Shown in pieces: positions 2 through 59,691 of a stretch of DNA of 64,000 bases. Each line of letters begins with the position of its first letter. Position 1 is the first letter of the stretch. The notes beneath the pieces are model-generated. The model saw nothing but the letters and a program-made list of their open reading frames with translations, ran no database searches and was not told the origin of the DNA. Location: the NCBI RefSeq assembly GCF_003054265.1, contig NZ_QBKT01000004.1, forward strand, positions 124,001 through 188,000. The letters run 5' to 3'. Position numbers and translations under genes: made by a program. The DNA comes from Kordia periserrulae. Lineage in GTDB: Bacteria > Bacteroidota > Bacteroidia > Flavobacteriales > Flavobacteriaceae.

Positions 2-220
2 GCTGGTGGCGCGCAAATGTTTAAAGATGCTGAACCTGGCAATAAAGAAGTCAACATTGAACGTACAGAGCAAGCATTAGACGTAAAACCAGATATCATT
101 GCGGCGGGTTGCCCGTTCTGTAATACCATGATGACGGACGGAATTAAAAACAAAGAAAAAGAAGATAGTATTGTAGTTCAAGATATTGCGGAACTTATTG
201 CAAATGCACAAGATTTATAA
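2..220 (+). CDS. (Fe-S)-binding CCG-domain protein, C-terminal fragment
   Basis: The window opens inside this gene: the frame is open from base 2 and reads AGGAQMFKDAEPG before ending at a TAA. The fragment holds a CPFC pair inside AAGCPFCNTMMTDG, which fits the last CxxC of a CCG domain as found in LutA/GlpC/HdrB-type iron-sulfur proteins. These are cytosolic electron-transfer or oxidase subunits for substrates such as lactate or glycolate. Only about 72 residues are visible, so the exact family member and start are unknown. The next gene starts 1 nt after the stop, suggesting co-transcription. Confidence 0.75.
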   Translation, partial: AGGAQMFKDAEPGNKEVNIERTEQALDVKPDIIAAGCPFCNTMMTDGIKNKEKEDSIVVQDIAELIANAQDL

Positions 221-1485: not shown

Positions 1486-1697
1486 ATGTGAGTTAGACAT
1501 AAGAAATCGTCAAATTGTTCTTAATTCACTGATAAATAATCCTTTGCCTGTTCGAGCGCAGTCGAGAACACAAGAAACTGTGCGTTTCAATCGAATCTCG
1601 GTAGCTTCGCTCGGTAGCTGCGATAATGCTCAATTTGACACTTTTTATAAGTAATTAGAAGTCAGTTAAGTATGAAAATATTTATACCAACTCACAT
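1486..1697 (+). repeat. MITE-like repeat, family A copy 1
   Basis: About 210 bp bounded by GTGAGTT (1488) and AACTCAC (ending 1695). Inside are a hairpin-forming GTTCGAGCGCAGTCGAGAAC (1550-1569) and an arm pair around GGTAGCTTCGCTCGGTAGCT. Copies lie at 32232-32447 and 59477-59691 in the same orientation. An extra AACTCAC sits just outside at 1471-1477, so the left edge may be composite. No open reading frame of note. With the terminator and the promoter at 1814, this accounts for the 1356-1844 gap. Confidence 0.75.
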
Positions 1698-31873: not shown

Positions 31874-32182
31874 AATGATTGTAGTAATTGTAATGTTAAT
31901 AATCTGATAAATTTTGGTTTAATTGGTAGAAAGTAACATTTTGCCCTTTTTACTTTCTGATACAAATGTACCATCGCAAAGTTGAAATGAAACATTTTAT
32001 CGATTACCCGTTTAAATTTTCGTTAAATTACATAAAATCGTCTTTTAACGTCAATTCACAGGGTGAAATACACCGTTCATCGACACAAAACCCCTTTTGA
32101 AAAAGGGGAAATTTCCTCTGCGTAAACAGGTGTTTTTACGGGTGTGGAACGGATTAAAGTCTTTGTTTTTTTGAAAGTGAAG
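31874..32182. other. intergenic region with one hairpin
   Basis: The only structure is CCCCTTTTGAAAAAGGGG (32091-32108), an 8-bp stem. No coding frame and no clear promoter. Upstream of the lipoprotein gene the sequence is AT-rich. Confidence 0.4.
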
Positions 32183-32212
32183 TAAAAAAAGAGCGACTCT
32201 TTCGGTCGCTCA
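32183..32212 (-). terminator. terminator of the SUI1-to-SBP operon
   Basis: The stem GAGCGAC / GTCGCTC is followed by a seven-T run on the minus strand. It is now ~230 bp beyond the last stop codon because repeat A2 lies in between; without that insertion it would begin about 7 bp after the reconstructed stop. Confidence 0.85.
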
Positions 32213-32231
32213 GTACTGTTATAGTACTTTA

Positions 32232-32447
32232 ATGTGAGTTCGACTTAAGAAATCACTATGTAATTCACAATTCACTAAGAAATAACTAATTGTCAGTTCA
32301 GGAGCGCAGTCGAGAACAACTAAGAATTGACAATTTCAAAGGAATCTCATGAGCTATGCTCGGTATCTACGATAATGCTCGATTTGACATTGAGTGTAAT
32401 ATATTGATAATCAGATATATAATAAAATAGTTATATCGAACTCACGT
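32232..32447 (+). repeat. MITE-like repeat, family A copy 2, with flanking 7-bp direct repeat
   Basis: A 216-bp element with near-perfect terminal inverted repeats (ATGTGAGTTCGA / TCGAACTCACGT, 11 of 12 pairing), the internal GAGCGCAGTCGAGAAC hairpin motif and a GATAATGCTCGATTTGACATT segment shared with the other copies. TACTTTA occurs on both sides (32225-32231, 32448-32454), like a target-site duplication. It overlaps the stop codon of the downstream minus-strand gene. No open frame inside. Confidence 0.8.
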
Positions 32448-33296
32448 TACTTTATGTGTCAAGTCTTTATATTTCCATTTTTGAGGAATGATATCCAAAC
32501 TTAACAGTTTGTCTTGTACTTTAGTAATCGTTTTTTCGTCTATGATTTCTTGACTCCATTCGGTTAACGACAACCATTTTTGTACATCTTCCAATTGCTG
32601 TTCGTAGCGTGAGGCAATCATTTCGTCGATGTTTGGAATATCTTTAAATTTCGCTGTCATTTCGTTGATGATGCTTAAAATGGTCTTTACCGTTTCTTCA
32701 TCTTTTTCTAACAATTCTGTTCGTACTGCGATGACAAAACACGGCCAAGGAGTAGGGCAGTCCGCAACACGTTTGAAAATTCCTTGATCAACCAATGGTT
32801 TTGTGGTGAAATGTTCCCACATAAAATAATCGCCTTTTCCTTTATTCAAACCATCAATCGCGCCTTCTAAATTATTGATGACTTCAAACTCTAAATCGTC
32901 CGTGTCCCAACCATTATTTTCGGCGTTTACATACGCCATTAGGTGCGAACCAGAGCCAAAACGACTAATAGCAGCTTTAGTTCCTTTTAAATCGTCAATC
33001 GTATTGTAGGGTGCGTCTGCAGCAACGTGAATTCCCCAAATTAAAGGCGATTCCACAAAAGTTTGTACAATTTTAGACGGATTTCCAGCAATGATATCTT
33101 TAATAATTCCTTCCGTAAGAATCACAGCAATGTCAATCTTTTCATTCCGAAGCGCTTTACACATAGCGCCTGTTCCTTCTGGATAATCTTTCCAGCGCAA
33201 GCTAATACCTTCTTTTTCGTACGCACGTTCTTTTAAGGTTAAATACCACGCGAGATTGAAATGTTCTGGAACTCCTCCTATGTTAATTTTTTTCAT
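32442..33296 (-). CDS. cytosolic substrate-binding-like protein
   Basis: A 284-aa protein with the two-lobe fold of ABC-type substrate-binding proteins (NMT1/THI5-like: GGVPEHFNLAWYLTLKERAY, KIDIAVILTEGIIKDIIAGN, GTKAAISRFGSGSHLMAYV). No signal peptide or lipobox, so it should be cytosolic, unlike transport proteins. No ABC permease or ATPase is nearby. It is the last gene of an operon with a nucleoside phosphorylase 9 bp upstream. The last codon and stop come from repeat A2. A role in binding a nucleoside-derived ligand is only inference. Confidence 0.75.
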   Translation of the reverse strand: MKKINIGGVPEHFNLAWYLTLKERAYEKEGISLRWKDYPEGTGAMCKALRNEKIDIAVILTEGIIKDIIAGNPSKIVQTFVESPLIWGIHVAADAPYNTIDDLKGTKAAISRFGSGSHLMAYVNAENNGWDTDDLEFEVINNLEGAIDGLNKGKGDYFMWEHFTTKPLVDQGIFKRVADCPTPWPCFVIAVRTELLEKDEETVKTILSIINEMTAKFKDIPNIDEMIASRYEQQLEDVQKWLSLTEWSQEIIDEKTITKVQDKLLSLDIIPQKWKYKDLTHKVT

Positions 33297-59476: not shown

Positions 59477-59691
59477 AAGTGAGTTAGATATAAGAAATTC
59501 CTGTTTTTCACTTAATTTACTAATAAATAAACACTTGTCAGTTCGAGCGCAGTCGAGAACGTTAAGAAAAACTAAAGTTTCAATCGAATCTCTGTAGCTT
59601 CGCTCGGTAGCTACGATAATGCTCGATTTGACATTTGGCATAAATCGCTCATAGAGAAACGTATCTTAAAATTATTACATTGAACTCACGT
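59477..59691 (+). repeat. MITE-like repeat, family A copy 3
   Basis: About 215 bp from GTGAGTTAGATATAAGAAAT (59479) to TGAACTCACGT (ending 59691), with TTCGAGCGCAGTCGAGAAC and GTAGCTTCGCTCGGTAGCTAC inside. Same orientation as copies at 1486 and 32232. Flanking direct repeats are not convincing here (ACTTTC versus TACTTAG), which may mean an older insertion. With AT-rich flanks it fills the 59418-59870 gap. Confidence 0.75.

Follow-up and report, generated by a model that had tools for sequence, protein, structure and literature searches.

We report that a repeat, here called A2, at the 3' end of a substrate-binding-protein-like gene of Kordia periserrulae is with high probability (roughly 0.94) an IS982-family MITE that was presumably mobilised in trans into the target TACTTTA, and that its insertion at the gene end was nearly neutral. 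With this locus, a filled site of a bacterial mini-transposon can be set cleanly against its empty counterpart, and an orphan repeat family is linked to IS982; the locus also illustrates how insertion on a stop codon can leave the protein unharmed.

The window, i.e. the whole stretch of 64,000 nucleotides analysed, corresponds to C4:124001-188000 of the genome (G000; 4.73 Mb, 38 contigs), and its features are listed in Table 1. Direct reading of the sequence confirmed the element described at 32232-32447 in the first-pass annotation, with terminal repeats (ATGTGAGTTCGA and, as reverse complement, ACGTGAGTTCGA) that are identical at 11 of 12 positions, and with TACTTTA on both sides. One terminus reads AC and the other AT. 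With a length of 216 bp, terminal repeats and no internal ORF of at least 60 aa, A2 has the make-up of a MITE. The minus-strand ORF at 32442-33296 ends with the codons CAT AAA GTA ACG TGA, and both its Thr codon and its stop lie inside the terminal repeat, as had been proposed. Likewise, the terminator, placed about 230 bp behind the present stop, was found there as a terminator-like stem (32191-32211) at 230 bp; in the rebuilt site this distance is about 7 bp.

Table 1. Features of the window that are discussed in the text
Feature	Position	Strand	Basis
MITE copy A2, IS982-type ends	32232..32447	-	216 bp, from sequence and copy comparison
Left terminal inverted repeat ATGTGAGTTCGA	32232..32243	+	sequence
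Right terminal inverted repeat ACGTGAGTTCGA (minus-strand letters)	32436..32447	-	sequence
Target-site duplication copy 1, TACTTTA	32225..32231	.	sequence, flank test
Target-site duplication copy 2, TACTTTA	32448..32454	.	sequence, flank test
Internal palindromic motif GTTC(AG)GAGCGCAGTCGAGAAC, variants in other copies	32296..32317	.	copy comparison
Element-closed gene, substrate-binding-protein-like (Pfam PBP2_Ca3427_like, NMT1), 284 aa	32442..33296	-	ORF, domain matches
Thr codon ACG (32445-32447) and stop TGA (32442-32444), element-supplied	32442..32447	-	sequence
Intrinsic-terminator-like site, stem and T run	32191..32211	-	terminator scan, L031 comparison
Sibling copy, diverged (locus L029)	1486..1697	+	copy comparison
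Sibling copy, diverged (locus L022), without clear duplication	59477..59691	+	copy comparison

Among named loci, the closest orthologues of the gene come from Kordia (eight loci, 87-96% identity); of the 80 loci kept, the remaining 72 reach at most 74%. The element is absent from the orthologous position in all eight, and the possibility that the repeat is ancestral there, which the first-pass annotation had named as a refutation, was tested and failed. The encoded C-terminus is Leu-stop in seven of the eight loci (His-Lys-Met-stop in the eighth, L037). The proposed change from Leu to Thr was right. In L031, the nearest empty site, the gene ends with ATA CAT AAA GTA CTG TAA, followed by 8 bases and then the terminator stem GAGCGACC, and the target (TAAAGTA in gene orientation) is present once. 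The end predicted for the site before insertion, ACA CAT AAA GTA CTA TAA, agrees with L031 in kind (single target, Leu-stop, terminator close by) but not in its exact letters and spacing: the Leu codon differs silently, one upstream residue is Ile instead of Thr, and the spacer in front of the terminator differs in sequence and has 8 bases instead of 7. Together with the copy-specific duplications described below, the empty loci of the relatives support a real insertion.

Other copies were compared with the relative G010 by using joined flanks as queries, for nine copies at or near gene ends: eight of the ten stop-codon copies of the present genome (L001 and L015 omitted) and L021, located 6 bp past a stop codon. 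Loci were recovered in G010 for seven of the nine queries (the L005 match being short) and none for L009 and L020. Four of them are clean continuous empty sites (L006, L011, L016, L021), and three (L005, L017, L023) continue with other sequence after the end of the gene. As a separate observation on the A2 locus, a noncoding block behind the gene (31900-32160; GGGGAAATTTCCCC and flanks) is single-copy in the genome and, judged by eye, is well conserved at the same place in seven of the eight Kordia loci.

A search of 99 genomes detected the element in 9: the present genome and 8 of 10 further genomes of the genus. None of the remaining genera, out of 74 covered, contained it. Flanks were analysed for 29 copies, comprising 24 of the 30 initial loci and five extra copies (L121, L125, L132, L134, L135), with the ends of L015, L017 and L029 placed by hand. 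This set excludes L010 (altered right end), L024, L026, L027 (overlaps L006), L028 and L030 as well as the 16 initial matches without a locus, apart from four represented by L134 and L135. Weaker candidates were left out too, for example L124, which has 3 mismatches in its terminal repeats and an exact 8-bp repeat. With flexible end positions, 22 of the 29 copies have a direct repeat that is exact over 6 bp or more, and in 15 it extends over 7 bp or more; 2000 re-pairings of the left and right flanks yielded on average 1.9 and 0.9 such copies and never more than 7 and 6, respectively. The 22 exact duplications are 6 bp (seven copies), 7 bp (eleven), 8 bp (two) or 9 bp (two) long, and 21 of them start with T and end with A; the other seven copies have no exact duplication of at least 6 bp. 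The duplications are specific to the copy (e.g. TAATTAA, TATTTTA, TACAAA and TAATATA), and TACTTTA as a part of the element, a second refutation that had been suggested, was rejected since other copies carry different sequences. In the relative G009, 28 of 34 elements (pairs picked by hand, unpaired matches omitted) have an exact repeat of at least 6 bp, compared with 4.4 on 1000 re-pairings (maximum 10).

G009 also carries five insertion sequences (IS) that share the same 1013-bp sequence throughout, with ends ACCTGAGTTCGA and direct repeats of 5-6 bp. Their 297-aa transposase matches NCBIfam transpos_IS982 (6.6e-83) and Pfam DDE_Tnp_1_3 (1.8e-71) and, used as query against 11 genomes of the genus, gave matches in four. 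In G004 a decayed IS982 copy is bounded on both sides by ACGTGAGTTCGA (with 0 and 1 mismatch), and in G002 a single end of an IS982 copy carries it, the other side continuing in a longer ORF. In this G002 locus (L160:268-2307, minus strand) the transposase frame runs on into a 679-aa ORF, the second half of which, judged by eye, resembles a plasmid-type replication protein.

Copy orientation was scored on 8+8 bases inside the terminal repeats, with G004 as left and G002 as right reference. In 24 of the 29 copies, A2 included, 12-15 of the 16 subterminal bases match in one orientation and 7-10 in the other, these scores being biased high because the better of two orientations was taken. The five copies below 12 of 16 are L021, L025, L125, L029 and L121; the first three are of an ACCTGAG type, and L021 has the ACCTGAGTTCGATTAAT start of the G009-type IS. 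AC termini are present at 49 of the 58 ends here and, in G009, at 55 of 58 MITE ends and 10 of 10 IS ends. According to PMC7335449, IS982 members are about 1 kb long, have AC conserved at their termini and are flanked by direct repeats that vary in length (7 bp for IS1187); AC ends and variable repeats are shared by the A2 family. Autonomous IS982 relatives of about 1 kb occur in the same genus, Kordia, whereas A2 has no transposase gene. Judged from its sequence, the A2 family is an IS982-type MITE, matched at both ends to IS982 copies. In the present genome no IS982 transposase match was obtained at E values up to 1e-10; a resident source is therefore lacking, unless the 38-contig assembly has missed a copy. 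In the stretches examined, no inward-facing pair of terminal repeats at IS distance (at most 2 mismatches), of the kind expected for an autonomous copy, was found.

These data suggest the following course of events. An IS982 transposase, probably supplied in an ancestor, would have acted in trans and inserted the non-autonomous element into the A/T-rich target TACTTTA, which overlaps the last codons of the gene and was duplicated (7 bp). The first bases of the element, ACG TGA, then ended the reading frame, replacing Leu-stop by Thr-stop in a protein that stays at 284 aa, and the native terminator was pushed 223 bp downstream. The insertion may have persisted because it was nearly neutral at the 3' end of the gene.

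Other MITE copies coincide with contig ends. One copy, with parts at L030 (end of C3) and L024 (C10:1-204), is seemingly interrupted at CTGCGCTC by a different repeat, which terminates both contigs. Three further contig ends (L126, the end of C16; L028, C13:1-173; and C4:1-108) break off inside the 3' end of a transposase gene of the IS110 type, and the junctions on C13 and C16 lie, by eye, inside MITE copies at the palindrome arm TTGTCA-N-TTCGA. A full-length relative (L236:1507-2526, minus strand; DEDD_Tnp_IS110 1.2e-24) has a similar junction. It is as if an IS110 element targeted the internal palindrome of the MITE. The PF02371 search of the present genome gave 0 matches, which is expected if the IS110 copies are cut at contig ends.

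Two other explanations of the A2 locus were weighed. The direct repeats could be due to chance in A/T-rich DNA, A2 having arrived by recombination with another copy; the flanks are A/T-rich, and as 0.9 of 29 copies show an exact repeat of 7 bp or more by re-pairing alone, a single copy would be weak evidence. However, the family-wide re-pairing control and the single-target empty site of the relatives contradict this explanation, which we regard as having hardly any probability. The insertion could instead have been kept because its structured RNA provides the gene with a working 3' UTR or terminator module. A2 is indeed palindromic, and when 26 copies are aligned in a single orientation the terminal stem and the internal stems GAGC/GCTC and GAGA/TCTC are kept in nearly all copies. 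Nevertheless, the predicted A2 RNA fold beats shuffled sequences only modestly (z -1.96; 9 of 200 shuffles fold as well), the covariation term of the 26-copy alignment is near zero (-0.21, with a double change in 4 of 29 pairs), and the scan found no terminator-like site within the element. One promoter-like match (11/12, plus strand, 32384-32411) belongs to a scan total of 7, with 5.1 expected; Rfam gave nothing at the gathering threshold in the window, and two matches near the terminator scored far below it. There is no good evidence for a selected RNA role of the element, and retention as such a module is very unlikely. Near-neutral insertion of an IS982-type MITE is the reading that we prefer.

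The position of A2 at a stop codon was compared with that of the other copies. Empty sites were rebuilt, and the same, simple ORF calling in 400 kb per genome served as null; a weighted null uses the target motif learned from 39 copies that are not at stops. In the present genome a single copy of the 29 is situated deep inside an ORF, where the null gives 75% (60% with motif weighting). Among the 28 others, the target centre is within -12..0 of a gene end in 10 of 28 (null 7.4%, p 2e-5; weighted 8.5%, p 6e-5), within -12..25 of a gene end in 17 of 28 (null 18.5%) and within -12..25 of a start in 1 of 28 (null 19%). G009, from a second species, shows a similar but weaker bias: 1 of 29 MITEs is deep inside an ORF, and of the remaining 28, six are on a stop (null 5.7%, p 0.004; weighted 7.8%, p 0.019) and nine lie at most 25 bp from a gene end (null 14.6%, p 0.015; weighted 22.8%, p 0.17). 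All 16 stop-codon insertions (10 here, 6 in G009) preserve the length of the protein, in part by construction, since the gene-side duplication keeps the bases of the gene and the earlier state is rebuilt; the residue change is confined to A2. With the element taken from its AC, 8 of the 16 present stops contain element bases: the TGA lies wholly in A2, and in seven the last A of TAA is from the element. Only three of the 16 stops have changed relative to the rebuilt state (TAA to TGA in A2, TAG to TAA in L020 and L145), and in the other five of the eight the last A is attributable to either element or target. TAAC is present at 97 of 126 junctions (39 of 58 here, 52 of 58 for G009 MITEs and 6 of 10 for G009 IS), as IS982 ends are AC and the targets mostly end with TA. 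The first frame counted from the AC end meets a stop within one codon for all 58 ends of the present genome, but within six codons for only 32 of the 58 G009 MITE ends.

These numbers bear on whether the Kordia IS982 machinery prefers gene ends or stops as such, the AC end completing TAA harmlessly, instead of the copies being what selection has left in A/T-rich DNA. A preference would fit the stop excess here, which persists under motif weighting, the excess in G009 under the same weighting, the abundance of TAAC junctions with element bases in half of the 16 stops, and the spike of stops inside the 3' zone of the present genome (10 of 23 compared with 21%, p 0.012). On the other hand, the corresponding spike in G009 is not significant (6 of 20 compared with 21%, p 0.24), nor is the weighted excess within 25 bp of gene ends there, and of the five intact G009 IS none is on a stop and two are deep in ORFs. 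Moreover, the ORF calls are simple and length preservation is partly guaranteed by the rebuilding of sites. The few copies deep in ORFs, one per genome where 60% is expected, and the few near starts indicate that selection is the main force. We conclude that purifying selection and an A/T-rich target explain most of the gene-end bias, that a real preference for stops is possible, and that a machinery directed at gene ends as such is unlikely. It is likewise doubtful that an AC end and a target ending with TA form a self-completing TAA and that Kordia elements have exploited this junction to colonise stop codons; if true, the terminus would repair the codon split by the transposon, and gene ends would be safe and frequent landing sites. 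The TA/AC junction could account, in a simple way that lends itself to testing, for the tolerance of some transposons at gene ends.

IS982-derived MITEs are already known, and the Kordia family is new as far as our searches go; among titles and the beginnings of abstracts, none on mobile elements of the bacterium Kordia was found. Like Kordia, Cardinium belongs to the Bacteroidota. An IS982-derived MITE, MITECca01, has been described in Cardinium (PMC9769881) and, by that description, resembles A2 in having about 240 bp, no transposase gene, IS982-type terminal repeats (those of ISCca4), conserved bases inside one end and many, mostly intergenic, copies. It differs from A2 in its host and in having an intact parental IS in the same genome, and the terms "target site", "duplication", "direct repeat" and "stop codon" are absent from the main text of that report (PMC9769881). 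REP/RAYT and other small palindromic repeats, as outlined in PMC2229807, share with A2 a short palindromic motif, which in A2 is internal, whereas A2 has true terminal repeats and target duplications; a REP/RAYT origin was rejected, as the Y1 transposase PF01797 had 0 matches in the present genome (the control was positive in 5 of 14 genomes). For the targeting of stop codons or terminators, the nearest case in the literature searched is MITEAba12 of Acinetobacter which, in the portions of PMC6382973 that deal with it, is thought to be mobilised by an IS (co-resident there) and favours A/T-rich targets. It has ISAba12-type ends, a length of 111-114 bp and 9-bp duplications, unlike A2. As with A2, one MITEAba12 copy is fused to the 3' part of a gene and supplies its stop codon, but that fusion shortens the protein by 398 aa (PMC6382973), whereas A2 leaves the length of its protein unchanged.
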